Shown here piece by piece: positions 12,201 through 53,167 of a DNA stretch of 64,000 bases (the first letter of the stretch is position 1; each line of letters begins with the position of its first letter). The translations under genes and the position numbers were made by a program. Source of the stretch: Oricola thermophila (lineage in GTDB: Bacteria; Pseudomonadota; Alphaproteobacteria; Rhizobiales; Rhizobiaceae); NCBI RefSeq assembly GCF_013358405.1, contig NZ_CP054836.1:3748501-3812500 (forward strand), given 5' to 3'. The notes under the pieces were generated by a model. It was not told the DNA's origin. It searched no databases and was given only the letters and a program-made list of their open reading frames with translations.

Positions 12201-12216
12201 TGGTGCCTCTGGCCGG
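12201..12216. repeat. attL core, 16-bp copy of the tRNA-Leu 3' end
   Basis: TGGTGCCTCTGGCCGG here is identical to 53083-53098 and in the same orientation. Identity stops on both sides, so this is the crossover region. In tRNA sense it is the last 16 nt of tRNA-Leu including CCA. The surrounding 11981-12322 stretch has no convincing gene: host spacer to 12200, then this site and the arm repeats. Confidence 0.92.
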
Positions 12217-12276: not shown

Positions 12277-12297
12277 TGTTGCCCGTTTTGTTGCCCG
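12277..12297. repeat. Left integrase arm-type repeat (21-bp direct repeat, copy 1)
   Basis: Two tandem TTGCCCGTTT units starting 61 bp inside attL. The whole 21 bp (TGTTGCCCG, TTTTG, TTGCCCG) recurs exactly at 52961-52981 inside the other end. Paired copies inside both ends, same orientation, are what arm-binding sites of a lambda-type integrase look like; binding itself is inferred. Confidence 0.6.
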
Positions 12298-12322: not shown

Positions 12323-12895
12323 CTATCCGGTCGGGCCGGCACGCGCAATCCGCTCGATCGCGGTGCGCAGCTTTTCAATGTCGCCATCATTGACGATCTC
12401 CGCGTCGACCGCGATCGCTCCCTGCTCGGCATCGGTGCAGATGCCGACCGGGCCGTCGACGCCCGGCCGCAGGATGCGCACGATGACCCCGCCGGCGGCG
12501 CGGATCGTCGGCGCTTCATACACAACCGACTCGACGACGATCGGCACGCCGGGATCCGACCGGCTGGCCGCGGCGAGTTCCGCGCCAAGCGTCCAGGCGC
12601 TACCCATTTCGACGCCCATGAACCGGCCGAACCGCTCGAGGAAATGGCGCGGTGGGACGCGATCCGGCAACAGGTCGGACGGCGCGTCGCGCAAATCGCC
12701 GTGAACCATGCGACATGCCTCGTCATGCGTCGCGCCAAGGTGCATGAAATAGCCGATCGCCGCGGCCTTGCCGCCGCCGAATGGATGAATTCGACCATAG
12801 CCGAGCATATCGACAAGGTGATTTGCGGCCTCGGTCTTGCCGACGCCGCGCTTGCCGGTCAGGCCGATCAGCGGCAGAAGGTGGCTTGCCCGCAT
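12323..12895 (-). CDS. Phage deoxynucleoside monophosphate kinase-like P-loop protein
   Basis: The 190-residue product starts with a P-loop, GLTGKRGVGKTEAANHL near residues 12-28, and the overall plan (P-loop, MGVEM.GSAWTLGAELA, VVESVVYEAPTIRAAGG, then an acidic tail) matches phage dNMP kinases related to T4 gp1. Such enzymes raise dNTP supply during phage replication. It is the last gene of the late operon, 9 bp after the small membrane-protein gene, and the last gene before attL. Substrate range is unknown. Confidence 0.65.
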   Translation of the reverse strand: MRASHLLPLIGLTGKRGVGKTEAANHLVDMLGYGRIHPFGGGKAAAIGYFMHLGATHDEACRMVHGDLRDAPSDLLPDRVPPRHFLERFGRFMGVEMGSAWTLGAELAAASRSDPGVPIVVESVVYEAPTIRAAGGVIVRILRPGVDGPVGICTDAEQGAIAVDAEIVNDGDIEKLRTAIERIARAGPTG

Positions 12896-32200: not shown

Positions 32201-32397
32201 CATTGCCCCCCGTCATATTCGGCGAAGGAAACCGACGGCCGTCGCGTTTCGTCGAGCGCGGCCGCGATCACGTCACGCGCCTTCAGCATGTCGGACATGG
32301 AATGATATTCGACCTCGTGATTCTGAAACTTCACGCGGCGCGCACCCGTCGCGATCGCCTCGTCGAGCTTGTCGAGGTCAGCTTGCGTCCAGGCCAT
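32200..32397 (-). CDS. Head-tail connector, lambda gpW-like
   Basis: 65 residues, MAWTQADLDKLDEAIATGAR, then RRVKFQNHEVEYHSM and KARDVIAAAL; this is the gpW fold pattern with a V.f....vey.s..d. core. It sits between terminase and portal genes with one-base TGATG overlaps on both sides, as W lies between A and B in lambda. Confidence 0.85.
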   Translation of the reverse strand: MAWTQADLDKLDEAIATGARRVKFQNHEVEYHSMSDMLKARDVIAAALDETRRPSVSFAEYDGGQ

Positions 32398-38293: not shown

Positions 38294-38748
38294 TCCCGAC
38301 CACCTGTCTTTTCCGGGCCGTAAGCCCAATCGTAAAGGGAGCCGCGATCGACGATCGTCAAAGGCTCGACCGGACCGGAGGCGAACTTGTCGCCGCGCGA
38401 TATATCTGCGGCAGCGGCCATAGCGCGGGCCGCCCTGTCGATCGCCACCTCGAAAAACCCGATTACCCAATCGGACTCGAAATACACCCCTCCGTGCCGC
38501 AGCACGGCAAGCGCCTGCACCGTTCCAGGCTCGCAAAGAAGCACGCGGACACCAGGCTTGCCGACCTCGCGCAGCCTCTCCTCCAGGTGCCGCGCCACGG
38601 GGCGCGTCGCGCAATAGACGACATCACCATCGGATACCCGATCGACAAGGCGCGCTGTTCTGCCCGTCCGCCTGCAGCCCGCCTCGAATGCCGCCAACGC
38701 CGCGCGCAATGCCGCGGCGCACCCGAAATCGTCAATATTCCCGATCAT
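38290..38748 (-). CDS. Hypothetical phage protein
   Basis: 152 residues: GNIDDFGCAAALRAALAAFE, GDVVYCATRPVARHLEERLR, then VLLCEPGTVQALAVLRHGGV and VDRGSLYDWAYGPEKTGG. A mixed alpha/beta layout is suggested; no motif identifies it. The ATG at 38748 overlaps the primase-helicase stop by 4 nt. Confidence 0.55.
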   Translation of the reverse strand: MIGNIDDFGCAAALRAALAAFEAGCRRTGRTARLVDRVSDGDVVYCATRPVARHLEERLREVGKPGVRVLLCEPGTVQALAVLRHGGVYFESDWVIGFFEVAIDRAARAMAAAADISRGDKFASGPVEPLTIVDRGSLYDWAYGPEKTGGRE

Positions 38749-40439
38749 GCGCTTTCCTCCTTTCCTGTCTGTTCGGCCACGCCCTGCGGCCACCATTCAT
38801 GCTTGACGCGAATGCCGCGATAGATCGGCGCCCCGTTCGTCTTCGCCTTGTGGAATTGCTGCATGGTCTCGCCGTCGGGCGACGGCCATGTGCGCCGTGC
38901 GGCGTCCGGCAGGCGGCGATAGAAGGTCGTGTCCCGCACCTTCACCGTGCCGGTTTCCATCGCGTAGCGTTCATATGAGCGGTACAGGTCGAAGGGCTTT
39001 TCGCTGTCCTGGTCGTCGCCCGTGACCTCGCAGGCATTGCGGATGAACGATCCGATCGGATCCTCCTCCTCGCGATATTCCTGCGTAGCGTCGAGAATGT
39101 CGCGCGGCGGATTGAGCCCGCCGGAATTGAGCATCGCCAGCGCGCCGTCGACGGCCCATTTCAGGATCTGCGGCGCCTCGGCCAACAGCTTTTGCGGCAG
39201 TTCCTTGTCGACCTCGTCTTTCGCGATCTGGACATTCCAGGGCACGAGGTGGATGCGCCGCCAGATGCCGTCGTCATTGCCGACGATCACCGGCTTGTGG
39301 TTTCCCGAGACAATCAACGTGAATTGCGGATCGAACTCGAAAAAATCCTGGTGCAGACGCCGCACGGCCAGCGGCTCGCCGCCGGTCAGCCGTTTGATAA
39401 GGGCCTCCTTGAAGCGCACGCCCGATTCCGGCTCGGAAGCGGCGACGAGGCGGGCGCCGGGAAGGCGGGCAAGGTCGGGCGTCGCCTCGGAACCCGACCG
39501 GCGGTCCTCGCCGGCAAAACTGTCGATCGACAGCGTGACGGCATAGTCGGACAGGATCTTCGCCAGCGTGTCGACGAATGTCGACTTGCCGTTGCGTCCG
39601 ATGCCATAGAAAAAGGCGATCATCTGCTCGGTATTGATGCCGAGCAGGGCATAGCCGGCCAGCCGCTGCAGATATTGACGCATTGCCGGCGACGGCTGCA
39701 CGCGCGCGAGAAATCGCTCCCATTCCTTCGGTCGCGGCGCGTCGAGGTCGACATCGACGGGCGCGACCTTGGAAATCAGGTCGTCGCGGCGGTGCGGATC
39801 GAGGCGGACATTCCAGACCGTGCGGCCATCATCGCCGGGAAAGTCGCTTTCCTCGCGATAGAAGCGCAGCGTTCCGTTGCCGACATTGAGCGCGTAGAGG
39901 TCGCGATTGAGGTCGTCGACCGATGCCGGTCGATAGGCTTGCGCCTCGGTCAGCATGTTCGAAATCTTCGACGAACCGCATGACGATTTGGCATGCCGGA
40001 TCCGGCTCTTGTGACGGTCGGCAAGTCGTTCCTTCACCTTCTCCGCCGCGGCGACCTGATCGTTCCACACCTTGCGGTCGGCAACATTGGCCTGCAGTTC
40101 CTCCCGCGTCGCCGATTTTGCGTCGAAGGGCGCGGCAAGGCTTTCCTGCGCAATGCGGCCGGCATCGAGGATTTCGCGATCGCGTTCCGGTATGTCGAGG
40201 AAATCGACCTCGCGGAAAATGGCCTCGGCCGCGCGGTGCGCCAGGCGCCGCACGATCGCGCCGGATTCATCCTCCTTCCACCGCCTTCCGTCATAGGCAT
40301 GCCAGCCGACATGCGTGACGTGGCGCACATCGTTTCCCGCCCATATCAGGAACCGCCGGGCGTTGCCGATGTCGTGTTCCGGCTGCTTCGCGCATTCGGC
40401 GATGATTTCGCGCTCGGCGTCCTTGTCCGCTTCAGTCAT
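38745..40439 (-). CDS. P4/D5-family phage primase-helicase (SF3 AAA+)
   Basis: 564 residues. The N-terminal half corresponds to the D5_N region (FLIWAGNDVRHVTHVGWHAY, ALNVGNGTLRFYREE). The C-terminal SF3 helicase has Walker A FFYGIGRNGKSTFVDTLAKI near residue 280, a sensor region FTLIVSGNHKPVIVGNDDGI and the arginine-finger stretch WRRIHLVPW. It should load on and unwind the phage origin. The ATG at 40439 starts MTEADKDAE; upstream in-frame residues overlap the methyltransferase gene. Confidence 0.92.
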   Translation of the reverse strand: MTEADKDAEREIIAECAKQPEHDIGNARRFLIWAGNDVRHVTHVGWHAYDGRRWKEDESGAIVRRLAHRAAEAIFREVDFLDIPERDREILDAGRIAQESLAAPFDAKSATREELQANVADRKVWNDQVAAAEKVKERLADRHKSRIRHAKSSCGSSKISNMLTEAQAYRPASVDDLNRDLYALNVGNGTLRFYREESDFPGDDGRTVWNVRLDPHRRDDLISKVAPVDVDLDAPRPKEWERFLARVQPSPAMRQYLQRLAGYALLGINTEQMIAFFYGIGRNGKSTFVDTLAKILSDYAVTLSIDSFAGEDRRSGSEATPDLARLPGARLVAASEPESGVRFKEALIKRLTGGEPLAVRRLHQDFFEFDPQFTLIVSGNHKPVIVGNDDGIWRRIHLVPWNVQIAKDEVDKELPQKLLAEAPQILKWAVDGALAMLNSGGLNPPRDILDATQEYREEEDPIGSFIRNACEVTGDDQDSEKPFDLYRSYERYAMETGTVKVRDTTFYRRLPDAARRTWPSPDGETMQQFHKAKTNGAPIYRGIRVKHEWWPQGVAEQTGKEESA

Positions 40440-40450
40440 GACGCCCCGCC

Positions 40451-41308
40451 TTACGTGTCGAGCCGGGCGAGCAGGTCGTCGCCGTCTGCAGCCCCGGAAC
40501 CTGCGCGCCAGACCGATCGAGCCCGGCGCCGGTCGACAGGCCCGGCCGGGTCGAGGATCCATTCGATCCGCTCGCGCGCGATGGCGAAATATTTCGGGTC
40601 AGATTCCACGCCGACAAACCGGCGCCCCTCGAGGATGCACGCGATTCCGGTCGTGCCGGAGCCCATGAACGGGTCGAGGACCATGTCGCCGGGATTCGTG
40701 AAGTCGCGCAGGATTTCGCGCATCAGCGCGACCGGCTTTTCCGTCGGGTGCCGCCCGTCTCGATCGGGGGCGTTCGTGAGGCAGGTATAGACGCCGCGCT
40801 TGCCGCCGCCGTTCCAGCGCGAATGCCCCTTGCCGCACCATGCTGCAACGAACATTTCGACGCCCATCGCCGGACCCTGACCATTGAATTGAGGCGGCGC
40901 ATCAGGTTTTACCCAGGCGCATGCGCGCTTGTATTTCGCTTCGGCGTCCTCGATCGCGTCCCGCCACGGGGCAACACCTTCAGGTGTGCAGAAAGCTATC
41001 AGCCAGCCGCGGGAAACCTTGACCATGAGGGGCGTTACTTTTGGACGGATGCTCTCGACAGATGAGAAGTCTAGAGTCTTCAATGCATTTCTTGCGTTCC
41101 GGCGAGGTGTCCGACCGACCTCGAGATCGCTTGCGACCTTGCCCCCTCGAGCCCCGGCCTTCGCCTTGTGCATGTTGGATTCATATGGCGGATCGCCGAT
41201 CACGGCATCGGCGCTGTCCGCCCCCATGTCGCGCAACACCGCGCAGCAGTCGCCGCGAATGATCGTGACATGCTCGCCGAGCGAAACAGTTTCATGGCCG
41301 ATCGTCAT
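40451..41308 (-). CDS. Phage DNA methyltransferase (N6-adenine/N4-cytosine, DPPY type)
   Basis: 285 residues. Motif IV DPPY is at residues 39-42 and motif I DPFMGSGTTG near 235, i.e. the beta-class order. HPTEKPVALMREILRDF precedes the SAM site as in site-specific amino-methyltransferases. No restriction partner is encoded nearby, so it is an orphan enzyme that may protect phage DNA or alter host gene control. GAGGG precedes the ATG at 41308. It lies between the two primase genes. Confidence 0.88.
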   Translation of the reverse strand: MTIGHETVSLGEHVTIIRGDCCAVLRDMGADSADAVIGDPPYESNMHKAKAGARGGKVASDLEVGRTPRRNARNALKTLDFSSVESIRPKVTPLMVKVSRGWLIAFCTPEGVAPWRDAIEDAEAKYKRACAWVKPDAPPQFNGQGPAMGVEMFVAAWCGKGHSRWNGGGKRGVYTCLTNAPDRDGRHPTEKPVALMREILRDFTNPGDMVLDPFMGSGTTGIACILEGRRFVGVESDPKYFAIARERIEWILDPAGPVDRRRARSVWRAGSGAADGDDLLARLDT

Positions 41309-41318
41309 GCCGCGACCC

Positions 41319-41795
41319 TCAAATTTCAGGCATGCGGCAGATGGTGAAGGCGCGGCGGCCGCGGCCCGTCGAGGGCGCGACGGCAATGAACCCCTTGTCA
41401 AGCAGCACCTGATAGGCGGCCTCGACATGGGATGCGGCAACGCCCGACCTCGTTTCGATGTCCATTGCCATCGGGCGCACGATGCCGCCGACGCCGGCCA
41501 TGTCGGCCAGCGCACGAAACACCTTCAACTCGCGCACCGAGAGTCCGACCGATTTTGCCCGCTCGGCGAGTTCGCGCGTCGTTTCGCGCGTTTTGGGGAA
41601 AAGGGCCTTGTGATGCGCGGCCGCCTTGGCGACCTCGCCATCGAGCGCGGTCAGGTCGATGCGATCGAACAGCGCCTGCACCATCTGGCCGGGCGTCATG
41701 CCGTGACGGGCGGCGGCGAGGCGAATTGCGTTGTGCCGGCTTTCCGGCGCGCGCACGGTGAAGCGGTAAATCGGCGGGTCGAATGTCGCGCTCAT
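41319..41795 (-). CDS. Predicted DNA-binding protein with winged-helix C-terminus
   Basis: 158 residues. The N-terminus RFTVRAPESRHNAIRLAAAR, then HGMTPGQMVQALFD resembles a ribbon-helix-helix unit, and the C-terminus (LSVRELKVFRALADMAGVGG, VEAAYQVLLDKGFIAVAPS) a winged helix. It starts with a 4-nt overlap on the primase stop. Possibly an origin-binding or regulatory factor; no close family is recognised. Confidence 0.6.
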   Translation of the reverse strand: MSATFDPPIYRFTVRAPESRHNAIRLAAARHGMTPGQMVQALFDRIDLTALDGEVAKAAAHHKALFPKTRETTRELAERAKSVGLSVRELKVFRALADMAGVGGIVRPMAMDIETRSGVAASHVEAAYQVLLDKGFIAVAPSTGRGRRAFTICRMPEI

Positions 41796-43009
41796 CTGTC
41801 ATCCTCGCGAATGCGTTGCAGGTAGGAGTTGAAGTCGTGCCCGGCCGGCGCCCATTCCGTTGCGACCGCCAGGGCATCGGAAGAAAGCCGAGCCTGCGCG
41901 CGCAACATCGCCGCGCGCGTCGCGAAGGTGTCGGAATCGGAGTCGCCGAGCAGCGTCAGCCGGGCAACGCCCGCAGGCGGGGCGTAAAGCTTCGCCGGGT
42001 CGTCGTCGGGCCGCGGATCCGGGCCGGGCACGCGCACGGGCATGCGGCGCCCGTCGCGACGCTGAAACGTCTGCGTCGGATGGCGGACGGTGCGCGCCGC
42101 GCGGCCGGCAAGGTTGCCGAGGTCGACGGCGCAATCGAGAAACACATCGCGGCGATTGATGGCGAACCACGAAAGGCAGGTCTCGATTCCCTCGCCGGCG
42201 ACCGCCTCGTCGCAACCGCGCCAATCCGGCAGGCGCAGCACGATGCGCCCGCCCCTTTTCGATCCGCGCACCTTTTTCGCCGGCAGCTGCTCGCCCGTGT
42301 CGGGATCGAATATTTCCGCCTTGCGGCGCGTTTCCGGGTCGATCCACGTCGCATGAATGCCAAGGAACCGCCCGTCGCGATCGACGATCGGCCAGACCAT
42401 TGCCGGGCCGACATGGATGACCCGCCATTCCTTGACCGGCCGCCCGTTCGTGTCGACGCGGCCGGTATCGACGAAATGCCAGAACGGCAGCGCGTCATGT
42501 TCGCGGCAATGCGCGCCTTCCATGCGCGCGAGATCCGGGTCGATGGCGCGACCGGCGAGATAGGACTCCACCATGCCGCCGAACCGCTCCGGCACATGAG
42601 ACTCGCGCCATAGCGCGAAAGCCCGGCGGCGTTCCTTTTCGCGGAACTTGTCGGCCTCGCGCCGCGCCTTTTCCCGTGCCGCGGCCTGCGCCGCCGGATC
42701 GGGCGCGGCCGGCACCTCCTCTCCGGTCAGTATCTCGACAGCGCGAACGAACGAACAGTTCTCGACATGCTGCACGAGCGCGATCGCATCACCGCCGATC
42801 GGGTCGCCGCCGCCCTGACGGCAGCGCCAGATGTTCTTTCGATGGTTGACGGAAAACCGGTCTCGCCCGCCGCAGCCGGGGCAGGGGCCGACCGCCTCGC
42901 CGCCGGCATTGGCACGCGCAGAAAAGCCGTAACGCGCGGCCAGCGCGGCGACGTCCGCCTGCCTGGCGGCGGCGACAACCCGGTCGGGGAAACGCTGCGC
43001 CGCGCTCAT
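41792..43009 (-). CDS. DnaG-like phage primase with CHC2 zinc ribbon and Toprim domain
   Basis: 405 residues. Zinc ribbon CPGCGGRDRFSVNHRKNIWR ending in CRQGG (Cys43, Cys46, His56, Cys63), a helical linker with VESYLAGRAI, the Toprim-type GEGIETCLSWF, LDCAVDLGNLAG and LLGDSDSDTFATR acidic motifs, and a short C-terminal tail. It should make RNA primers for phage replication. Its ATG at 43009 overlaps the stop of a 19-codon ORF by 4 nt. Confidence 0.88.
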   Translation of the reverse strand: MSAAQRFPDRVVAAARQADVAALAARYGFSARANAGGEAVGPCPGCGGRDRFSVNHRKNIWRCRQGGGDPIGGDAIALVQHVENCSFVRAVEILTGEEVPAAPDPAAQAAAREKARREADKFREKERRRAFALWRESHVPERFGGMVESYLAGRAIDPDLARMEGAHCREHDALPFWHFVDTGRVDTNGRPVKEWRVIHVGPAMVWPIVDRDGRFLGIHATWIDPETRRKAEIFDPDTGEQLPAKKVRGSKRGGRIVLRLPDWRGCDEAVAGEGIETCLSWFAINRRDVFLDCAVDLGNLAGRAARTVRHPTQTFQRRDGRRMPVRVPGPDPRPDDDPAKLYAPPAGVARLTLLGDSDSDTFATRAAMLRAQARLSSDALAVATEWAPAGHDFNSYLQRIREDDR

Positions 43010-43065
43010 GTCCGCGCCGCCTGTTGCGCGTCGAGGCCGGCGAATGCTATCCGCGCCGCGATCAT
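43006..43065 (-). CDS. 19-codon ORF coupling cro to the primase gene (possible)
   Basis: ATG at 43065 overlaps the cro stop (ATGA) and its TGA overlaps the primase ATG (ATGA). GGAGG precedes it. The peptide would be MIAARIAFAGLDAQQAART. It may serve only to carry ribosomes across an otherwise 52-nt gap. Confidence 0.4.
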   Translation of the reverse strand: MIAARIAFAGLDAQQAART

Positions 43066-43328
43066 GTCGCGCCCTCCGCGCCGTTTTCGCGCGGGCGGTC
43101 GCGGCCGGCCAGCCAGTCAAGGGAGACGCCAAGTTCATCCGCCAAAAGCGCAGCATCGACGAGCGCAAGCTTGCGCTTGCGTCCATTGAGGAAATCTCGC
43201 AACCCGTCGCGCTTCAGGCCGGCGGCGACCTCGATCGTGGCTACGCGACGCCCGTCCGCGGCCACGGCCTGCGCCACGCGGGCGAGGGTGGTTTGCTCGT
43301 CGGGCAATGTCTTGATCGGCGATTCCAT
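43062..43328 (-). CDS. Cro-like repressor
   Basis: 88 residues, a single helix-turn-helix domain: RVATIEVAAGLKRDGLRDFL then NGRKRKLALVDAALLADELG, VSLDWLAG. The RDFLxGRK and ELGVxxxWLxG elements are shared with the divergent cI product, so both should recognise the same operators. It is the first gene of the leftward early operon, with operator O1 in its promoter. Lacks any C-terminal protease domain. Confidence 0.8.
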   Translation of the reverse strand: MESPIKTLPDEQTTLARVAQAVAADGRRVATIEVAAGLKRDGLRDFLNGRKRKLALVDAALLADELGVSLDWLAGRDRPRENGAEGAT

Positions 43329-43338
43329 GGCCGCCGAA

Positions 43339-43365
43339 GGAATACGGAAAGTTCCGTATTGTCAA
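43339..43365 (-). promoter_or_regulatory. Leftward early promoter in front of cro
   Basis: A perfect -35 TTGACA reads on the minus strand at 43365-43360, with TATTCC at 43344-43339 as the nearest -10 (15-bp spacer, suboptimal). Operator O1 lies between the two, so repressor binding would block polymerase. Confidence 0.55.
43341..43360. promoter_or_regulatory. Repressor operator O1
   Basis: AATACGGAAAGTTCCGTATT, two 9-bp half-sites with a 2-bp centre. It is the most symmetric of five ACGGA-N4-TCCGT sites and overlaps the leftward promoter. Confidence 0.75.
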
Positions 43366-43378
43366 CGGAGAAATCCGT
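43365..43378. promoter_or_regulatory. Repressor operator O2
   Basis: ACGGAGAAATCCGT, centre 21 bp from O1, i.e. two helical turns and on the same face of the DNA, allowing cooperative binding. Confidence 0.7.
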
Positions 43379-43387
43379 AAAATTGAC

Positions 43388-43407
43388 TTTACGGAGATTT
43401 CCGTATT
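43388..43407. promoter_or_regulatory. Repressor operator O3
   Basis: TTTACGGAGATTTCCGTATT, centre 26 bp from O2, nearest to cI. It overlaps a possible cI promoter (TTGACT 43383-43388, TATTCA 43404-43409), which suggests autoregulation. Confidence 0.7.
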
Positions 43408-43450
43408 CACTTGTGGGCAACATAACAGAACGAAAGGCAGGGGCTTGACA

Positions 43451-44107
43451 ATGACGAACAGGGAAATCGTTTCGGCCCGAATCCGCCAGCGCCTCGAGGA
43501 AACCGGCCGCAGTGCGGCCAGCGTGTCGCGTGCCGCCGGTCACGGTGTCGACTTCATTCGCGACTTCCTGACCGGTCGAAAGAAGCGCATGAGCGCCGAT
43601 GCCCTGGTCGCGATCGCCCGCGAGCTTGGAGTCACTGTTGCTTGGCTCCAGGGGAATGACGAGGCGGTGATGCCGGATGGTGAAGGCGAGGAGCGCCCGG
43701 CGCGCCCGCGAACGGTCCCGGTCTATGGCACCGCGGCCGGCCGCGACGACGGCGCGATGCATCTCGGCACCGATGTCATCGACTGGCTATCCTGTCCGCC
43801 GGGGCTGGAAGGCGCGCGCGATGCCTATGCGCTCTATGTCGTCGGCGAATCCATGCAGCCGCGCTACTATCCCGGCGATGTCGTGATCATAGCGCCGCAC
43901 CGCCCGCCGCGCGCCGGCGATTGCGTCGTCATCCAGTGCAAGTCCGCAGATACCGGCGCGACGGAGGCATGGGTGAAGGAATATGTCGCGACGACGGCCG
44001 ACGAGATCGTCGCGCGGCAATACAACCCGCCGGCCGAAATGCGCTTTCCGCGCGCCGAGGTCTCCGCCGTCCACCGCATCATGACCCTTAACGACCTGCT
44101 TAGCTGA
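43451..44107 (+). CDS. CI-like lysogeny repressor, S24 (LexA-type) self-cleaving
   Basis: 218 residues. N-terminal helix-turn-helix (SAASVSRAAGHGVDFIRDFL, TGRKKRMSADALVAIARELG), linker, then an S24 peptidase domain: probable cleavage bond Ala96-Gly97 in YGTAAGRD, catalytic Ser134 in VVGESMQPRYYPGD and Lys176 in EAWVKEYVA. It should hold the prophage silent and be cleaved in the SOS response. ATG at 43451 has AGGGG upstream; a TTG two codons earlier is in frame. Operators flank the gene on both sides. Confidence 0.93.
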   Translation: MTNREIVSARIRQRLEETGRSAASVSRAAGHGVDFIRDFLTGRKKRMSADALVAIARELGVTVAWLQGNDEAVMPDGEGEERPARPRTVPVYGTAAGRDDGAMHLGTDVIDWLSCPPGLEGARDAYALYVVGESMQPRYYPGDVVIIAPHRPPRAGDCVVIQCKSADTGATEAWVKEYVATTADEIVARQYNPPAEMRFPRAEVSAVHRIMTLNDLLS

Positions 44108-44119
44108 TACGTAAAAATT

Positions 44120-44133
44120 ACGGAAAATTCCGT
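44120..44133. promoter_or_regulatory. Repressor operator O4
   Basis: ACGGAAAATTCCGT, just upstream of the -35 of the rightward promoter and 13 bp after the cI stop. Confidence 0.68.
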
Positions 44134-44140
44134 TTTACTG

Positions 44141-44168
44141 TTGACGATACGGATTTTTCCGTTATCAA
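44141..44168 (+). promoter_or_regulatory. Rightward early promoter
   Basis: TTGACG at 44141-44146 and TATCAA at 44163-44168 with a 16-bp spacer. Operator O5 fills the spacer. It would drive the 44202-51612 gene set. Confidence 0.55.
44149..44162. promoter_or_regulatory. Repressor operator O5
   Basis: ACGGATTTTTCCGT, between the -35 and -10 of the rightward promoter; centre 29 bp from O4. Confidence 0.7.
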
Positions 44169-44201
44169 TCCCGCCCCATGGTCAATCATGGAGCGGGAAT
44201 C

Positions 44202-44471
44202 ATGCAGACACCATCCACCATCCACCCGAAACCCTTCGGCCGTCTCGCCTTCGATCCGGCGAAAGCAGGCCGTCGGCTGCGCGAGGCCGTTGACCGCCTT
44301 GACGCGGCGCGCGGGGCGGACAGCATCTTCGACGACGACGCCGGCCTGACCGGTGCCGCGGCCGAGCGCGCAGCGCGCTACAATCGACATGCCGCCTTTG
44401 TCGAGGCCGTGCTGATCGCCTCCATTGCCATCATCGGCATTGCCGCCTGCGCGGCGACGCTTCCCGCCTGA
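44202..44471 (+). CDS. Small membrane-anchored early protein
   Basis: 89 residues. A soluble charged part (AKAGRRLREAVDRLDAARGA) is followed by one C-terminal membrane span (FVEAVLIASIAIIGIAACAA). GGAG precedes the ATG at 44202; the ATG at 44178 has no SD and lies 9 nt after the -10. First gene behind the rightward operators, so expressed immediately on induction; a tail-anchored host-takeover or superinfection protein is one possibility. Confidence 0.6.
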   Translation: MQTPSTIHPKPFGRLAFDPAKAGRRLREAVDRLDAARGADSIFDDDAGLTGAAAERAARYNRHAAFVEAVLIASIAIIGIAACAATLPA

Positions 44472-44483
44472 AGGGAGGTCGCG

Positions 44484-45011
44484 ATGCACGCGCTTCAATC
44501 GAGAACCAGCGCCGCCGAGGTGGCGCATCCGCCGGCGGGTATCTCCTCCCCGCCCGCCGGCGGCGTTGTCGACCGCATGGCGGAATTCATGCGCGAACAC
44601 ATTGCCGCGGCCGGCAGCGTCACATTCGACGATCTGGCCGGCGCAGGCTTCACGGCAGCGGAAATCATCGAGCATGCATACACGGCCGCCTATCATGCCG
44701 AGTTGCGCATGAACCGGCGCGACGACGGCCTCGACCGGATCGACGGCATCATCGTGAAGGTGCGGTCGGCAAACCCCGACGCCATGCCGTTGACCGCCGG
44801 CGCGACGGACAGCCCGACCATGCGCAGCGAATGGCGCGCATATTGCCGGGCTGTTGCCGCCTACAGGGTCGACCCCTGGTCATTCCAGTTGCGCCGCGTC
44901 GAGGAGCGCCTCGACCAGTTTCTCCGCCGGCTGCCCCTTCTGAAATCCGAAAGGCAAAAGGCCGCCCGCGCGGCCGTGAACGAACTCGCGAAAGGAAAGG
45001 CTGCGCGATGA
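44484..45011 (+). CDS. Hypothetical early phage protein
   Basis: 175 residues, mainly helical, with DDLAGAGFTAAEIIEHAYTA near residue 50 and a basic C-terminal helix (LKSERQKAARAAVNELAKGK). GGGAGG precedes the ATG. It overlaps the HD-domain gene by 4 nt. No family recognised. Confidence 0.55.
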   Translation: MHALQSRTSAAEVAHPPAGISSPPAGGVVDRMAEFMREHIAAAGSVTFDDLAGAGFTAAEIIEHAYTAAYHAELRMNRRDDGLDRIDGIIVKVRSANPDAMPLTAGATDSPTMRSEWRAYCRAVAAYRVDPWSFQLRRVEERLDQFLRRLPLLKSERQKAARAAVNELAKGKAAR

Positions 45012-45631
45012 CAAAAGCATGGAAACAGAGTCTCACCGGCCGGGCGATCACGGTGTCGCGGCCCGCCGCCGGTGAAATCGACGTCATGATCGACCTGCCG
45101 GAAACGCTGGCGCGCATATCGCGGTTCGACGGCGCCGTGCCCGGCGGCGTTTATACCGTCGCGCAGCATTGCGCGGTCATGGCCGACGTCATTCTCGAGG
45201 AAACCGGCGACGCGCATCTCGCCGCAATCGCGCTGCTCCACGACGCGCATGAATTCATCATCGGCGACATCACGACGCCGGCGGTCGAGGGGCTGGCCGA
45301 GGTCGAGATCGAACTGTTCGGCGACAGCCGCATCATTTCGGTGATCGCCGAGGCCAAGCGTCGCGCCGACGCGGCGATCTTCCGGGCATGCGGAACGCCG
45401 CTGCCGACTGCCGAACAGGTGCGCATCGTCAAGGCATACGACACGCGCATGCTGGCAACCGAGCGCCGTCACCTGCTCGCCAACTGCCCGCGGCGGTGGA
45501 ATGCCGCGATCGAGAAGGCCGAGCCGCTGCGCCTGCGCGGCGCGCTGCGCATCTGGCCGACGGCCAGGGCCGCCGACGAATACCGCGCCCGCCTGAAAAC
45601 CCTATGCCCGGCCGCCGGCCGCATCGCCTGA
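45008..45631 (+). CDS. HD-domain phosphohydrolase (YfbR-like nucleotidase)
   Basis: 207 residues. HD metal motif: YTVAQHCAVMADVILEE near residue 50, then AAIALLHDAHEFIIGDITTP near 80. This is the pattern of YfbR/HD hydrolases that remove phosphate from dNMPs, and related phage HD proteins next to replication genes. It could tune nucleotide pools or destroy a host signal nucleotide. The ATG at 45008 overlaps the previous stop; long in-frame upstream sequence is a shadow. Confidence 0.75.
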   Translation: MTKAWKQSLTGRAITVSRPAAGEIDVMIDLPETLARISRFDGAVPGGVYTVAQHCAVMADVILEETGDAHLAAIALLHDAHEFIIGDITTPAVEGLAEVEIELFGDSRIISVIAEAKRRADAAIFRACGTPLPTAEQVRIVKAYDTRMLATERRHLLANCPRRWNAAIEKAEPLRLRGALRIWPTARAADEYRARLKTLCPAAGRIA

Positions 45632-45649
45632 TCCGAAGGGAGAACCGTC

Positions 45650-45961
45650 ATGGCAAATCCGAAGCTTGCAGAAATGGACCTGTTTACCGTCATCCCCGAT
45701 GCCCGCGTGATCGTTTCGGAAAAGGGCGTCTACAGGCAGGTGCCGCTCTATCAGCGCGCCGGCGGGCTCTATGCCGAACACCGCAGCGGGTTCGCCCGGC
45801 TGATCGTCGGCGGATCGACCAGCGTCCCCGCCATGCGTTGGGAGGAGGTCGTCGGCGTCGAACTCGAGAACGACAAGCCGGCCCCGCGCGAACGGATCAA
45901 GGCGACCGGCCTTCGCCTCGCTGCCCCGCATGCCGTGATCGAGCACCGGGCGGGGGAGTGA
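45650..45961 (+). CDS. Hypothetical early phage protein
   Basis: 103 residues, beta-rich: MDLFTVIPDARVIVSEKGVY, RQVPLYQRAGGLYAEHRSGF and RWEEVVGVELE. No family recognised. GGGAGAA precedes the ATG. It lies between the HD protein and the sliding clamp, 5 bp before the latter. Confidence 0.55.
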   Translation: MANPKLAEMDLFTVIPDARVIVSEKGVYRQVPLYQRAGGLYAEHRSGFARLIVGGSTSVPAMRWEEVVGVELENDKPAPRERIKATGLRLAAPHAVIEHRAGE

Positions 45962-45966
45962 TCGGC

Positions 45967-47112
45967 ATGACATTCACGATCGAACCGAAAGCCGCGGCCG
46001 GCGTTCATTCGGCGCTGAAGGGCGTTCCCGAGCGCAGAAACACCATCCCGATTGTCGGCATGTACCATTTCCAGCCGGGCGAGGGCACCGTCACGGTAAC
46101 GGCGAGCGACCTTGACCTCGAATGTTCGCTGACCGTGAAGGTCGAGCCGGGCGACGGCTTCGACGCCATGCCGGCCGCCTGCGTGCCACCCTACATCGTC
46201 GAGGCGGCGGGATCCGTGAACCGCGCGGAAGTGAAATTCGCGATCGACGAACAGACGGTTTGCGCGCGCGCCGGCCGGTCCCGCTTCCAGTCGCAGATCC
46301 TGCCGGGCGGGGATTTCCCGCGGCTGCAACAGGCATTCGACGGCGCGGCGGAAATCGAGGGCAATGCGCTTGCCGGGCTGATCGCGGCCGTCGCCCCGGC
46401 CGCCCCGCTCAAGGACGAGACGCGATACTATCTCGAGGGCATCAACCTGCAGGTTGCAGACGGGCGGCTTGTCGTCGCCGCGACGGACGGGCACCGGCTG
46501 CACACGACCTCGATCGAGGCGCCGGAAGGCTTCGCGACGAACGGCTTTGCCAGGGACGGAATCATCGTGCCGAACAAGGCCGTCGCCGAGATCCGGCGCC
46601 TCGCCGCCAAGGCCGGCGACGCGCCGGTAACGCTGCAGATCGGCGACCGGCTGATCGCGGCCGAGGCCGGCGACGAGCGGATCGTGTCGAAGCTGATCGA
46701 CGCGACCTATCCAGAGTGGCGGCGCGTTATCCCGAAGGCGCGTGAAATCACCGCGACATTCGATCTTGCCGAGATGATCGCCGCGCTCGACCGCGTGCTG
46801 AAGGTGCAGGCGGCCAGCGACGACAACAAGGAAAGATCCGGCCTGAAGCTTGCCGAGGATGGCGACGTCATGACGATCGCCGTCCAGGGCGACCGGTCGG
46901 AGGCAGCCGACGCCGTGCCGGCCGAATTCGCCGGCGCATGGGGAGCGCGCGGAGTCAACGGAAAATATCTGCGCGCGACACTGGCGACGATGAAGGACCG
47001 CGGCGCCGAGGTCGCGATCATCGACGCCGCCGATGCCGGGTCGCCAATGCGGATCGAGAACCCGAACGACGAGGATTTCCTCGCCGTCGTCATGCCCATG
47101 CGGATCAGGTGA
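45967..47112 (+). CDS. dnaN: Phage-encoded DNA polymerase III beta subunit (sliding clamp)
   Basis: 381 residues, full-length three-domain clamp. Partner-pocket residues are present: AATDGHRLHTTS (E. coli TDGHRL) and the C-terminal FLAVVMPMRIR (VVMPMRL). Other matches are TASDLDLECSLTV, ARAGRSRFQSQILPGGDFPR and VPNKAVAEIRRL. It should form a ring on DNA and tether Pol III. No phage polymerase is seen in the window, so it probably works with host Pol III and other clamp binders. The ATG at 45967 has GGGGGAG upstream. Confidence 0.93.
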   Translation: MTFTIEPKAAAGVHSALKGVPERRNTIPIVGMYHFQPGEGTVTVTASDLDLECSLTVKVEPGDGFDAMPAACVPPYIVEAAGSVNRAEVKFAIDEQTVCARAGRSRFQSQILPGGDFPRLQQAFDGAAEIEGNALAGLIAAVAPAAPLKDETRYYLEGINLQVADGRLVVAATDGHRLHTTSIEAPEGFATNGFARDGIIVPNKAVAEIRRLAAKAGDAPVTLQIGDRLIAAEAGDERIVSKLIDATYPEWRRVIPKAREITATFDLAEMIAALDRVLKVQAASDDNKERSGLKLAEDGDVMTIAVQGDRSEAADAVPAEFAGAWGARGVNGKYLRATLATMKDRGAEVAIIDAADAGSPMRIENPNDEDFLAVVMPMRIR

Positions 47113-47126: not shown

Positions 47127-47411
47127 ATGGCTGACAAGACCACGGGAGCGCCGGACCTGAAATCGGCGCAGATCGACCTCGAGGAAGCGATCGCAGCCGT
47201 CGAGGAGGCAGAAATCGCCAAGGCCGAGGCAAACCGCATGGCCTGCGACCGGATCAACCGGCTGAATGCCGCACAAAAAAGGTTCGACGAGGCGGTCGCA
47301 GCAATGCGCAAGCGCGGCGCGCGATCCGGTAGCGACTGGCAGACAGCCGTCGACAGACAGCGGGAAGCCGGACTGCGCGTCCTGCAGCGCGACAATGGGG
47401 CGCGGCGATGA
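47127..47411 (+). CDS. Small coiled-coil phage protein
   Basis: 94 residues, almost all helical: SAQIDLEEAIAAVEEAEIAK then AEANRMACDRINRLNAAQKR. GAGGAGG precedes the ATG. Likely oligomeric; no function assigned. Overlaps the next gene by 4 nt. Confidence 0.6.
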   Translation: MADKTTGAPDLKSAQIDLEEAIAAVEEAEIAKAEANRMACDRINRLNAAQKRFDEAVAAMRKRGARSGSDWQTAVDRQREAGLRVLQRDNGARR

Positions 47412-47596
47412 CCGGCACCGGATACCTGACTGGCAATCACGCGGTCGCGGCGATCGTTCTTTGGGCAGGTGGCCAATTCAACACGAAAGAAATCGCCGAC
47501 CTTCTGAATGTACGCGAGGACGCCGTTTGCCGGACGTTGCATCTTGCCAAGGAAGGCGCCCGCGCGGACGCCAGGAGGCGCGGCGATGATGGATGA
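47408..47596 (+). CDS. Small helix-turn-helix protein
   Basis: 62 residues. HAVAAIVLWAGGQFNTKEIA then DLLNVREDAVCRTLHLAKEG form a helix-turn-helix of the Cro/MarR-like or sigma-4-like type. ATGA overlap in front, 11-nt overlap with the methyltransferase behind. A transcription regulator of early genes is plausible. Confidence 0.65.
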   Translation: MTGTGYLTGNHAVAAIVLWAGGQFNTKEIADLLNVREDAVCRTLHLAKEGARADARRRGDDG

Positions 47597-49148
47597 TTAC
47601 CTGATCGTCGACAGCTTTGCCGGCGGCGGCGGCGCATCGACGGGAATCGAAATGGCGCTCGGCCGGTCGCCGGACGTCGCCATCAATCATGATCCGGTGG
47701 CCCTCGCCATGCACGCGGCGAACCACCCCGAATGCGATCACCTGCCGGAAAATGTCTGGCAGGTCGACCTCGACAGATATGCGCGCGGGCGGCCGATCGG
47801 CCTGCTATGGGCCTCGCCGGATTGCCGTCATTTTTCCAAGGCCCGCGGCGGCGCCCCGACATCGGTTTCGGTGCGCGGTCTTGCCTGGACGATCGTCAAG
47901 TTCGTCTGGCAACTGAAGCGAAAAAAGCCGCGCGTCATCATCATGGAAAACGTCGAGGAGTTCCGCACATGGGAGGATTTCGACGCATGGAAACGGCAGC
48001 TTAGGCAGCACGGCTATCGCATCGAAATGCGCGAACTGCGCGCATGCGATTACGGCGCGCCGACGATCCGCAAGCGCCTGTTCATCGTCATGCGGTGCGA
48101 CGGGAAGCCGATCGTCTGGCCGAAGCCGACACATGGCGCGCCCGACGATCCGCGTGTCCTCGCCGGAAAACTGAAGCCGTATCGCACGGCTGCCGAAATC
48201 ATCGACTGGTCGGTCCCGTGTCCCTCGATCTTCGACACGTCGGAGGAGATCATGCGCAAGCACGGCGTGCGCGCCGTGCGCCCGCTGGCGCCGGCGACGA
48301 TGAAGCGCATTGCACAGGGCGTGAAACGATACGTTCTCGACGCGGTCGATCCGTTCCTTGTTTCCGTCGCGCACGGCTATTCCGGCGGCAAACGCGATTA
48401 CCCGCTCGGCGAGCCGATCGGCACCGTCACCGCGTCGCCGGAAAAGGCGCTTGTCGTGCCGATCATATCGGCCGCGCAGCATGGCGGTTCGACGCGGCCG
48501 GCGACGGCGCCGATCCATACGATCGCCGCAAGCCCGAAGGACCAGAACCAGGTCGTCGCGGCGTTCCTCGCGCAGCACAATTCCGACATGGTCGGCCGCC
48601 CGGCACGCGCACCGCTGTCGACGATCACCACGCGCGGTACGCAACAGACGGTCGTCGCGGCGCACATGCTTTCGATGAAGGGCAGCGACCGCCGTGACGG
48701 CTCGCCCGGCGAGCCGCTTCCGACCGTTTGCGCAGGCGGAACGCACGCCGCCCTCGTCGCGTCCTTCATGGTGAAGTATTACGGCGCCGGCATCGGCCAG
48801 GGCGTCGACGAGCCCTGCCATTCCGTCACCACGCGCGACCGGTTCGGACTCGTCACGGTGGAGATCGGCGGGACGGATTACGTGATCGTCGATATCGGAA
48901 TGCGCATGCTGACCCCGCGCGAACTGTTCCGCGCGCAGGGTTTCCCCGACGATTACGTGATCGACCGCGGCATCGACGGCAAGCCGATCCCGAAGACTCA
49001 CCAGGTTCACAAATGCGGGAATTCCGTATCGCCGCATCCGGCGCAGGCGCTCGTCGCCGCGAATTGCGAATTCCTGAAACGCCGCGCCGAGCCGGCGCGC
49101 GAAATCAACCGCAACGAGAAAGGTCAAGCACATGAGCGGTTCGCTTAA
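47586..49148 (+). CDS. Phage C5-cytosine DNA methyltransferase
   Basis: 520 residues. Motif [18 protein letters not shown]; motif [17 protein letters not shown] with the catalytic Cys in the less common SPDC form; motif [10 protein letters not shown]; motif [16 protein letters not shown]; late motifs [16 protein letters not shown] and [18 protein letters not shown] long middle (about residues 220-420) with repeated ITTRGT/VTTRDR-type units is the target-recognition region. Orphan, no nuclease partner. AGGAGG fixes the ATG at 47586. Its end overlaps ssb by 17 nt. Confidence 0.92.
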
Positions 49149-49662
49149 CAAGGTCATGCTGATCGGCAATCTCGGCGCCGATCCCGAGATTCGCCGCCTG
49201 AATTCGGGCGATCCGGTCGTCAACCTGTCGATCGCAACGTCGGAAACGTGGCGGGACAAGACGACAGGCGAAAAGCGCGAGCGCACCGAGTGGCATCGCG
49301 TCGTCATCTTCAACGAGCATATCGCCAAGGTCGCCGAGGACTACCTGAAAAAAGGCGCGAAGGTCTATGTCGAGGGCAAGATCCAGACGCGCAAATGGCA
49401 GGACCAGTCCGGCCACGATCGCTATGCGACCGAGATCGTTCTGCAGAAATTCGACGGCACGCTGACCATGCTCGGCCAGCCCGGCGGCGGCGGGCAGGAC
49501 AGGGCGGAAAGCCAGGCCCGCGCCTATGGACGCGAAAGCTACGGCGCGGCATCCGGCCGCGACGACGAGCGCAGCCGGATCGAGGAGCGCACGCGCCAGC
49601 ACATGGAACAACGCGGCGGAACCGATTTCGTGCGCGACATGGATGACGAAATTCCGTTCTAG
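49132..49662 (+). CDS. ssb: Single-stranded DNA-binding protein
   Basis: 176 residues. The OB fold is clear ([60 protein letters not shown]), followed by a disordered Gly/Arg linker and the acidic tip MDDEIPF, which recruits host replication and repair proteins. It coats ssDNA at the phage fork, beside the clamp and methyltransferase genes. Confidence 0.96.
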
Positions 49663-49677: not shown

Positions 49678-49857
49678 ATGCATGTATGGATAACGGAAAC
49701 GCCCGCCGGGTTCGTCACCCGCGCAACCTATGTCGCGCCGAGCGGCAAACCCGCATCCGCCAGCTTTCGCGGACGCCTGTCGGAAGATCGGGTCATACTT
49801 GAACTGGCTCGCCTTCGCAGGATTGCCCGACTGGCAGAGTCGACGAGCCGCCAATGA
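49678..49857 (+). CDS. Small basic phage protein
   Basis: 59 residues: MHVWITETPAGFVTRATYVA then a helix rich in Arg and Leu (LELARLRRIARLAESTSRQ). Ends in a 4-nt ATGA overlap with the HNH gene. GGGGAT precedes the start. Support is from coupling and codon use. Confidence 0.5.
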   Translation: MHVWITETPAGFVTRATYVAPSGKPASASFRGRLSEDRVILELARLRRIARLAESTSRQ

Positions 49858-50222
49858 TGCGGGATCGCGCGAAACTGGCCGATCGCCGCAACGCGATCCT
49901 GCAAAAGATCCTTGCGCGTTGCGTCCGCAGGCCGCGGCAGCCGGGACAGGAAATCGGCTGCCTCGAATGGCAAGGGCCGGATTCGGGCGACGGACGGGGA
50001 GGCGGATATCCGCGCATGTCGCTCGACGGCCAGACGGTCGCCGTGCACCTGGTCATCGCAAATCACTTCCTCGGCTACATACCGGGGAAAAAGCAGATCG
50101 ACCATGAATGCGGCAACCGCCGGTGCCTCGAGTGGACTCACATGGACATCGTGACTGCGAGCGAGAACTGCCGACGTCGCAACGGACGCAAGCCGCAACG
50201 GCGCGGGAACTGGCGCAAATGA
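49854..50222 (+). CDS. HNH endonuclease
   Basis: 122 residues. GYPRMSLDGQTVAVHLVIAN then GKKQIDHECGNRRCLEWTHM and DIVTASENCRRR form an HNH domain with the His-Asp-Asn metal and catalytic centre and two zinc-type Cys. HNH proteins in phages act in homing, recombination or packaging; here it lies far from terminase, so homing or host-DNA attack is more likely. Start and stop overlap neighbours by 4 nt. Confidence 0.8.
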   Translation: MMRDRAKLADRRNAILQKILARCVRRPRQPGQEIGCLEWQGPDSGDGRGGGYPRMSLDGQTVAVHLVIANHFLGYIPGKKQIDHECGNRRCLEWTHMDIVTASENCRRRNGRKPQRRGNWRK

Positions 50223-51621: not shown

Positions 51622-52950
51622 CTACAGCGCCACCTTCCGAACTGCCTCGACTGCCCATGTCAGCGCGTCGCTGTAGCCGTATTTCGGCCGGCTGATCGCG
51701 TGCCCCATGAGGTAGCGCCGCAGTTCCTCGTCGACATTCGCCAGCTTCAGGCGCGCCTCGAACGCATGGCGCATTGAATAGAGCGTGTGCCGGTCGCTTT
51801 CCATCAAGCCGTGATCGCGAAAATACTTGTTGACCGCCGCCGACAGGTTGTCCCGGTCGCGATAGCGCGGGAAGCCGCCGGCCGCCTTGGCCTCCCGCAA
51901 CGCCTCGAGGGATACGCCGACGAGCGGGATGCGTCGCGCCGTTGCCCTTGCCTTCAGTTCCCGGTTTTCGGTCTCGCGAATATCGACATGGGGAATGTCG
52001 GCGTCGAGGACGATTGCATCGGGCTCGAGATTGATGATCTCCGACGGCCGCGCGCCCGTGTTTATCAGCGCAAGCACCGCCCGGCGGGCGTCGTCATTCA
52101 TGGCGTCGAGCGCGCCCGGCGCGAGGATACGCTGCCGGATCCACGCCTCGGAAAAGGCCGGTCGCGTCCGCACGATGCGATCATTGAAGCGCATGCCGCG
52201 AAACGGGTTCGGAACGTCGCGGCCGACATAGGCGAAATATTCGCCGAGAAGCGAGCGCATCGTGTCCAGATCCTTGTTGCCCGCCGAGGCCGACAGCGGC
52301 CGGACCTTCGGATCGTCGGGCGCAATACGGCCGAGCCACCATTCATGGAACTTGCGCGCCTCGTCACGGCCAATCTTCTCGATCGGAATGTCTCCGACGA
52401 CGCGCTTGAAATTCTCTATTCCGCGCCGCTTCAGTTGCCGCCATTTCGTGCGCTGCAGATCGGATTTGCGCGCCAGGTCTGCGCGCCGGATCACGTTTTC
52501 GAACACGTCGAAGGCATCGTCGATCGAGGTTTCCGCCTCGCCGGCCGCGCCAAAAACGGCGGCGCCCGTTAGCCTGTCGGGAGAGGCGGCCGCCACGCGA
52601 ATCCGCGATATCAGTTCCTCGACGCTTGCCGACGCCGCCAGGTCGGCCACCGACCGATATTCGATCCGCAGCGAGAGTGCGCGCTCGATCGCCCGTGCAT
52701 GGATATCGCCGCCGACGTCGCCGGACGCGATGCGTTGCCATTGCTCGTCGTCGGCCGCCTCCATCGCGTCGCGCCGGGCGCGCGCCTCGGCAAGATCGGC
52801 CGTTTTGAGCGACCGCCGGATCGTGCCCGGATAATCGGGATAGACCCTCCGCAACGCCGAAAGTGCATGACCGGGCACGCGCCGGACATAGCGAAATCCG
52901 CCGTCGGATCGCTTTTGTAGATACCTGTCAGGGGATTTTTCCCGCCTCAT
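51622..52950 (-). CDS. Tyrosine recombinase (phage integrase)
   Basis: 442 residues. N-terminal arm-binding part (RYLQKRSDGGFRYVRRVPGH), core-binding SAM-like part, and catalytic domain with the first Arg in INTGARPSEIINLE, TLYSMRHAFEARL as box II (Tyr in place of the usual His), LMGHAISRPKYGYSD with the terminal Tyr. The ATG at 52950 is chosen because the next in-frame ATG (53004) would put the arm repeat inside the coding region. It catalyses insertion at tRNA-Leu. No excisionase was recognised. Confidence 0.9.
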   Translation of the reverse strand: MRREKSPDRYLQKRSDGGFRYVRRVPGHALSALRRVYPDYPGTIRRSLKTADLAEARARRDAMEAADDEQWQRIASGDVGGDIHARAIERALSLRIEYRSVADLAASASVEELISRIRVAAASPDRLTGAAVFGAAGEAETSIDDAFDVFENVIRRADLARKSDLQRTKWRQLKRRGIENFKRVVGDIPIEKIGRDEARKFHEWWLGRIAPDDPKVRPLSASAGNKDLDTMRSLLGEYFAYVGRDVPNPFRGMRFNDRIVRTRPAFSEAWIRQRILAPGALDAMNDDARRAVLALINTGARPSEIINLEPDAIVLDADIPHVDIRETENRELKARATARRIPLVGVSLEALREAKAAGGFPRYRDRDNLSAAVNKYFRDHGLMESDRHTLYSMRHAFEARLKLANVDEELRRYLMGHAISRPKYGYSDALTWAVEAVRKVAL

Positions 52951-52960
52951 GAGGGCGGTT

Positions 52961-52981
52961 TGTTGCCCGTTTTGTTGCCCG
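52961..52981. repeat. Right integrase arm-type repeat (21-bp direct repeat, copy 2)
   Basis: Exact copy, same orientation, of 12277-12297. It lies between the integrase start and attR, 102 bp from the core. A 6-bp inverted repeat GAAATC-AAGC-GATTTC (52981-52996) abuts it and may be a further protein site. The stretch 53035-53082 is AT-rich, as for IHF or the integrase promoter. Confidence 0.6.
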
Positions 52982-53082
52982 AAATCAAGCGATTTCGCGG
53001 GCACCGGAAATGCGAAGCTTCCGGTTCGTCAAATATTCCTATTTAAAAACAATATGTTATGGTGTTAACGATAATGGAAAGC

Positions 53083-53098
53083 TGGTGCCTCTGGCCGG
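53083..53098. repeat. attR core
   Basis: TGGTGCCTCTGGCCGG, the last 16 nt of tRNA-Leu, identical to attL. Confidence 0.92.
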
Positions 53099-53167
53099 AG
53101 TCGAACCGGCACTCCTTGCGGAACTCGATTTTGAGTCGAGCGCGTCTACCAATTCCGCCACAGAGGC
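53083..53167 (-). tRNA. tRNA-Leu (anticodon CAA)
   Basis: 85 nt with encoded CCA. The acceptor stem GCCTCTG pairs with CAGAGGC, the D-arm GGAATTGGTAGAC is present, and the anticodon stem CTCGA/TCGAG encloses loop CTCAAAA. It has a class II variable arm as expected for Leu, and GGTTCGACTCC as T-arm. Its 3' end is the phage attachment site and remains intact. Confidence 0.96.

Follow-up and report, generated by a model that had tools for sequence, protein, structure and literature searches.

A complete sliding clamp gene in a contractile-tailed prophage

The window analyzed here is a 64,000-nucleotide stretch of the Oricola thermophila genome (NZ_CP054836.1, positions 3,748,501 to 3,812,500), and gene coordinates refer to this window unless stated otherwise. 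An open reading frame on the plus strand (45967..47112) begins with ATG at 45967, ends with its stop codon at 47112, has no internal stop, and encodes a beta sliding clamp of the DnaN family with 381 amino acids. The Pfam models PF00712, PF02767, and PF02768 were all found above cut-off and in that order, the NCBIfam equivalog model TIGR00663 (dnaN) scored 152.3 bits against a cut-off of 137.65, and the PHROGs family phrog_947, "DNA polymerase processivity factor", covered residues 15-380 with an E-value of 6.2e-55. An AlphaFold2 single-chain model based on an alignment of 40 sequences had a pLDDT of 92.8 and a pTM of 0.91. With this model, Foldseek returned DnaN chains with TM values of 0.85-0.93 among the 50 matches listed, which were sliding clamps of Bartonella, E. 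coli, Pseudomonas, Caulobacter, and Stenotrophomonas. The first-pass annotation of this DNA had described a full-length beta clamp with TDGHRL and VMPMR pocket residues, and the start, end, strand, domains, and both motifs in the translation were all confirmed. The dnaA-dnaN-recF neighborhood that is present at the host copy is absent at this gene, which lies in a prophage. As a side aspect, two PHROGs families labelled RusA-like resolvase, phrog_3007 and phrog_12598, also match the clamp (E-values 2.8e-18 and 2.7e-7), and these labels look wrong or the families look mixed.

The features of an integrated temperate phage were found at this locus, namely tRNA-derived att repeats, an integrase (below the Pfam cut-off), a repressor, a terminase, a portal, and tail genes. 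A repeat search revealed, at 12201..12216 (left att core), 16 bp that are identical to the 3' end of a tRNA-Leu gene, as well as the right att core at 53083..53098, which starts exactly at the 3' end of the predicted tRNA-Leu (CAA) gene that served as the integration site (53083..53167, minus strand). The two copies thus bound a prophage of about 40.9 kb. The tyrosine integrase gene adjoins att on the minus strand (51622..53004 as the longest open reading frame, whereas the gene prediction starts at 52854). Profile matches on the minus strand identified the large terminase subunit in the late region (32397..34388) and a tail sheath protein (25063..26556), the latter indicating a contractile-tailed phage, and portal, head protease, tape measure, and baseplate genes are also encoded. 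An IMG/VR contig of 40,628 bases was identical to the window over the 16,984 bases compared. Just inside each prophage end lies a copy of a 21-bp direct repeat (12277-12297 and 52961-52981), possibly an integrase arm site.

The clamp gene is part of a co-directional run of early-type genes (HD nucleotidase, clamp, methyltransferase, and SSB) downstream of cI. The CI-like repressor with HTH and S24 peptidase profile matches is encoded on the plus strand (43451..44107), and a Cro-like HTH protein (below the Pfam cut-off) is encoded divergently on the minus strand (43062..43328). On the plus strand, cI is followed by a predicted 89-aa open reading frame without assigned function (44202..44471), a functionally unassigned 175-aa protein (44484..45011) that tblastn found conserved in a Mesorhizobium albiziae prophage (L032) and in the UViG L078, an HD-domain 5'-deoxynucleotidase-like protein (45008..45631; phrog_318 with an E-value of 2.2e-33, Pfam below cut-off), and a predicted 103-aa protein of unassigned function immediately 5' of the clamp (45650..45961). 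Beyond the clamp, the same strand encodes a predicted 94-aa open reading frame without assigned function (47127..47411), a 62-aa HTH-like open reading frame (47408..47596, below cut-off), and, according to profile matches, a C5-cytosine DNA methyltransferase (47586..49148), a single-strand DNA-binding protein (SSB; 49132..49662), and an HNH endonuclease (49854..50222). The earlier statement that the clamp gene is located beside ssb holds in the sense that both belong to the same co-directional run, but ssb lies 2.0 kb downstream, beyond two small open reading frames and the C5 methyltransferase gene.

The minus strand encodes a zinc-finger/Toprim DNA primase (41792..43009; phrog_510 with an E-value of 1.1e-60, Toprim and zinc-finger Pfam matches below cut-off), an N6/N4 DNA methyltransferase of 354 amino acids (40451..41515), and a D5_N/DUF5906 primase-type helicase (38745..40562). 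Only the C-terminal part of the methyltransferase profile was matched, and this protein may be a divergent or shortened enzyme. The helicase, which we assign to SF3, aligns with the C-terminal portion alone of longer primase and "polymerase/primase" families, leaving the N-terminal portion of these primase families unmatched.

The palindrome ACGGANNNNTCCGT occurs three times upstream of cI (43344..43404, OR-like) and twice downstream of it, before the clamp gene run (44120..44162, OL-like). By motif count, five copies in the window compare with 0.08 expected, five were reached in none of 100 shuffles, and allowing one mismatch added just one site. A cI gene with two flanking operator regions presumably represents a lambda-like layout, and CI would be expected to bind at these operator-like palindromes. 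The clamp gene follows 1.8 kb beyond the downstream pair, within the co-directional run, and a scan of 42900-46100 for consensus sigma-70 promoters found none ahead of that run. The M. albiziae prophage has one copy of the palindrome at the matching place, and no copy was found in L078 or in the stretch of a second host prophage (L031).

Occurrence and descent of phage-borne clamps

Complete clamps in 40-kb temperate phages had been called uncommon in the first-pass annotation. With the clamp as query, tblastn gave matches in 60 out of 50,697 phage records, and in 33 the match spanned at least 80% of the query, which agrees with this view; however, clamps recur in alphaproteobacterial temperate phages, and for these the term therefore fails. 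The clamp of the window is thus a known kind of phage gene. At least one of the 60 records is a bacterial chromosome: CAKLQH020000026.1, deposited as Acinetobacter phage MD-2021a, contains dnaA-dnaN-recF-gyrB. Among the 600 IMG/VR matches listed, at least 544 stretches encode a clamp relative. In the host's family, whose genome set includes M. albiziae (NZ_FOSL01000010.1), a hand count gave two or more clamp matches in 39 of 199 genomes, a few matches being pieces of one gene and a prophage origin of the extra clamps being shown for some at most. The host genome itself has three clamps, one in the chromosomal dnaA-dnaN-recF locus at 2.95 Mb, the window copy, and another of prophage type at 2.04 Mb. 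In the stretch around this second prophage-type clamp (genome positions 2025701-2045700, L031), relatives of CI, HD nucleotidase, and SSB are encoded upstream of the clamp, an integrase gene adjoins it on the downstream side, and the pocket of this clamp reads TNGKTL, with K and T where most others have H and R.

Phage clamps have also appeared in the literature as annotations. The available text on cluster H alphaproteobacterial phages mentions a "replicative clamp protein" (PMC10783043), that on cluster O mycobacteriophages a beta clamp (PMC4351075), and for an Erythrobacter phage the accessible part contains a clamp as a table row (PMC5463345). The word "clamp" is absent from the main texts on 16-3-like, LM21-like, Paracoccus, and Ochrobactrum phages.

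The clamp of the window shares 55% identity with that of the M. albiziae prophage and 33% with the dnaN product of its own host. With eight other named phage or prophage clamps that were aligned, identity was 26-34%, and some chromosomal clamps of the host's family (34-36%) are slightly nearer. A phylogeny against the host dnaN, as proposed in the first-pass annotation, was calculated with 34 rows and separated 15 chromosomal from 10 phage rows (95/94), with 9 rows in neither group; the window clamp paired with the M. albiziae clamp (100/100, branch length 2.7). As long branches carried a warning of false joins, we used the tree for the chromosomal/phage split and the M. albiziae pairing only. 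A recent capture of the host dnaN is ruled out by the 33% identity and the tree.

The gene order around the clamp is shared with two relatives, the prophage of M. albiziae DSM 21822 (NZ_FOSL01000010.1, L032/L189) and the IMG/VR UViG 3300022736_000016 (L078), both of which have the 175-aa open reading frame, HD nucleotidase, the 103-aa open reading frame, clamp, SSB, and HNH endonuclease in this order. Identities within the cassette are 45-64% in the M. albiziae prophage and 40-72% in L078, and in L078, helicase, primase, HD nucleotidase, clamp, SSB, HNH endonuclease, and integrase are retained at 48-72%. A related CI is encoded in the M. albiziae prophage, although the contig breaks off within cI; L078, unlike the window, has no CI match, in addition to lacking the palindrome. 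Among three clamp genes (those of the window, L078, and L011), the third codon positions vary most, and this excess indicates that the protein has been kept. Searching viral contigs for more members of this clade of three yielded none besides L078 and the contig of the window itself. In genome contigs, M. albiziae was found at 53% among 12 loci, the remaining long matches reaching at most 33% and one match of 52 residues 49%, and a scan of genome contigs with the window protein alone found no clade member; as these scans require exact short peptides, they may miss members.

Across 80 viral clamp loci, the neighborhood was examined by tblastn up to 8 kb on each side. HD nucleotidase was found in 33 and SSB in 26 of them, always on the clamp strand, while the Toprim primase was found in 10, always on the opposite strand; relatives of CI occur on either strand (8 and 16). 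In Rhizobium phage RR1-A, Agrobacterium phage Rivra, Paracoccus phages Pyei1, Pthi1, and Psul1, and Aurantimonas phage AmM-1, CI and the clamp are encoded on one strand, and none has an A-, B-, or C-family polymerase over cut-off, as in the window. As in the window, an annotated integrase follows further on, except in AmM-1, which has ParA and, in the stretch shown, lacks an annotated integrase, and replication-type genes lie on the opposite strand, except in the annotation of Rivra. In RR1-A (L061, 13539-13615) and Rivra (L063, 7954-8029), a tRNA gene is located one small gene from CI. Rhizobium phage 16-3 and Sinorhizobium phage AP-16-3 also have a phage beta clamp and no A/B/C polymerase over cut-off, but their clamps are nearer to chromosomal DnaN (49-51% identical to that of this host), and the neighbors of the 16-3 clamp differ, with a sigma factor and a Cas4-domain exonuclease.

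Client pocket and ring joint of the clamp

We compared the clamp with the host DnaN (L009), a member of the same fold family with the same client pocket that is encoded at the housekeeping locus, at 23 positions taken as pocket and 27 positions taken as interface. Identity was 87% in the pocket, 30% in the interface, and 28% elsewhere. Twenty distant chromosomal clamps with a similar overall distance (30-39% elsewhere) have kept the pocket at 82% and the interface at 45%.

In the E. coli clamp, the hydrophobic core of the interface consists of Ile78, Phe106, Ile272, and Leu273, as stated in the accessible text of a published study (PMC11139829). Of these residues, the window clamp has kept F106 and has A in place of I78, K in place of I272, and V in place of L273; it also has S in place of L108, which is presumably a neighbor of the ring-interface core. 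The host chromosomal DnaN has I at 78, L at 108, and T at 272. The changes are shared within a clade formed by the window clamp together with its closest relatives, the M. albiziae and L078 clamps, which are 51-55% identical: position 78 is A/A/A, 108 is S/A/A, 272 is K/K/K, and 273 is V/M/I, with Phe106, R103, R105, and E301 kept and D at 304. A short insertion in the clamp adjoins the helix of residues 267-284 in the AlphaFold2 model.

With "usual character" defined as hydrophobic residues at 78 and 108 and a residue at 272 that is neither charged nor an amide, the three positions were all usual in 43 of the 44 chromosomal clamps, in 68 of the 78 other viral clamps, and in 6 of the 8 clamps from named phages or the second prophage. 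For the chromosomal set, 14 rows were picked by hand from the host's family, 29 were returned as loci from 40 genomes of the phylum, and E. coli completed the 44; among the 80 viral rows, L143 (435 aa) was omitted and L078 moved to the clade, leaving 79 and then 78. As position 108 is hydrophobic in all these rows, no clamp outside the clade has all three positions changed. Alanine at 78 is also found in ten other viral clamps. The clamps of RR1-A, Rivra, Pyei1, and AmM-1 are 26-34% identical to that of the window; unlike the latter, all but one of the four keep the three positions. Phage clamps do not in general have a loosened interface, as the viral interface is kept at least as well as that of similarly distant chromosomal clamps. 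The window clamp is of a known kind but has an unusual ring joint in a small clade.

According to the text available from the respective studies, the E. coli variant I272A/L273A is monomeric (PMC4041429, PMC3022782, PMC11139829) and binds delta about 50-fold more strongly (PMC11139829, PMC3022782). With the altered core, ring formation itself is not assured for the window clamp. However, the occurrence of the same changes in three diverged phages speaks for constraint over decay. The substitution pattern suggests that the joint of this clade is either rebuilt and private, or weak and easily opened. We tentatively consider the combination of a rebuilt joint with a frozen pocket as a possible private ring that does not mix with host subunits and is read by the host polymerase and loader, or else as a joint that was weakened purposely. 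If private, the ring would be a natural orthogonal clamp that marks phage DNA for shared machinery; if weakened, it could open or load with less help. An orthogonal joint would also provide a natural non-mixing clamp pair for biochemistry and, together with the shared pocket, would show how a virus tags its own forks for host enzymes.

Polymerase supply and function of the clamp

Models of the A-, B-, and C-families were used to search for DNA polymerases. In the whole host genome, C-family alpha subunits were found at 1.17 and 3.35 Mb only and PolA at 3.20 Mb only, PolB was absent, and no polymerase of the three families lies inside the window (3.75-3.81 Mb). Each predicted prophage protein larger than 310 amino acids has some non-polymerase assignment. 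The absence of a phage DNA polymerase from the prophage, as claimed earlier, was thus borne out for these families. In other clamp-carrying viral records, an A/B/C polymerase over cut-off was found in 0 of 65, consisting of 16 phage genomes picked by hand among the 60 clamp-matching records and 49 IMG/VR contigs (0 of 49 for each family, some contigs possibly being fragments). These 49 were chosen by hand from the 80 viral loci, mainly on contig size, the other 31 being on contigs below 37 kb (26) or of 97-121 kb (5), and the Acinetobacter record was excluded from the counts, being a bacterial chromosome. The record of a 139-kb Nodularia phage gave a single PolA match below cut-off (21.2 bits), and the annotation of Rhizobium phage 16-3 names a "DNA polymerase/primase". 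A clamp without such a polymerase is therefore the rule in the records searched, and temperate phages of this size usually have no polymerase anyway, which weighs against reading much into its absence. Phage T4, in comparison, encodes its own polymerase and clamp loader. Its gp45 is a phage clamp too, but a homotrimer, according to the accessible text (PMC9690074). For a bacterial-type clamp that comes without an A/B/C polymerase in 65 of 65 records, the literature searched, mostly without subscription papers, contained annotations only, with no functional study of such a clamp from a polymerase-less temperate phage and no experiment on the reason for its presence.

As a full phage clamp with an intact client pocket is found without an A/B/C phage polymerase, use by the host Pol III and clamp loader is the natural reading. 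We consider it probable that the clamp is an early replication part of this contractile-tailed temperate phage, used by host Pol III and loader on phage DNA after induction. In the lysogen, CI would hold the early genes off; upon induction, the right-hand early operon would produce HD nucleotidase, clamp, and SSB, and the opposite operon the Toprim primase and the SF3-type helicase. The phage would thus supply unwinding, priming, SSB, and the clamp, and borrow the Pol III core and the clamp loader, which would recognize the phage clamp via the conserved pocket to the benefit of phage forks. The previous proposal that the clamp redirects host Pol III to phage forks is supported by the intact pocket and the missing A/B/C polymerase, which make host use natural, although this use is deduced from sequence.

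The clamp-binding pentapeptide occurred 3 times in the 57 predicted prophage proteins against 2.7 expected, and two other clamp-binding motif forms occurred 0 and 1 times against 0.2 and 2.0 expected. Phage proteins as clamp clients were therefore rejected for lack of an excess of any of the three forms. The prophage proteins thus provide no phage partner that would support a fork role, and the result fits, but does not prove, host proteins as the probable partners. The SSB ends with DDEIPF, similar to what we take to be the usual acidic tip. In E. coli, chi connects the clamp loader to SSB, as described in the available text (PMC11139829).

A phage clamp with a weak ring or with mixing subunits might instead sequester the host loader along with the clients of the clamp, thereby slowing host forks and diverting resources to phage DNA. 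Such a poison or switch of host replication would be compatible with the three changed interface positions and with the strong delta binding of the monomeric E. coli variant (PMC11139829, PMC3022782), as a loose clamp could trap the loader, and Twort gp168 and G1 gp240 are described in the accessible text as acting on the host clamp and stopping host replication (PMC3594737). We nevertheless regard this reading as rather unlikely, as a poison would not need three domains, whereas this clamp is conserved at full length in a gene run with SSB and has kept the DNA-channel residue R24 and the pocket; moreover, the equivalents of R103, R105, F106, E301, and D304 are kept or conservatively exchanged in the clade, which points to a working interface. 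The published DnaN-targeting phage proteins (PMC3594737, in the part available) and the mere 33% identity to host DnaN could also argue for a clamp that evades host-defense or rival-phage factors binding to the host clamp, as the first-pass annotation had proposed. The pocket, however, is conserved better than any other part, despite the strong divergence of the remaining protein from its host counterpart, and no gene for a clamp-targeting factor stood out in the prophage. We judge this idea to be unlikely.

A role away from the fork, in which the clamp serves as a platform for repair, methylation, or late transcription in analogy to T4 gp45 and not in processivity, appears quite improbable to us. 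The two DNA methyltransferase genes of the prophage, one of them between clamp and ssb, and the transcription role reported for the T4 clamp in the text available (PMC9690074) would be in line with it, but SSB, primase, and helicase are replication-type neighbors, and the prophage proteins show no excess of clamp-binding motifs. Very improbable is the view that the clamp is a passenger gene (moron) useless to the phage. Acquired clamps could persist by chance for a while, but the same place in the cassette in three phages with clamps of 51-55% identity, the excess of third-position changes, and the location downstream of the cI palindromes all contradict this view.

The prophage also encodes a deoxynucleoside monophosphate kinase-like protein (12323-12895) in addition to the dNMP phosphatase-like protein at 45008-45631, and relatives of these two are encoded at most 1.7 kb apart in Rhizobium phage 16-3. 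Together with the two DNA methyltransferase genes, they may point to a handling of modified nucleotides by this phage.
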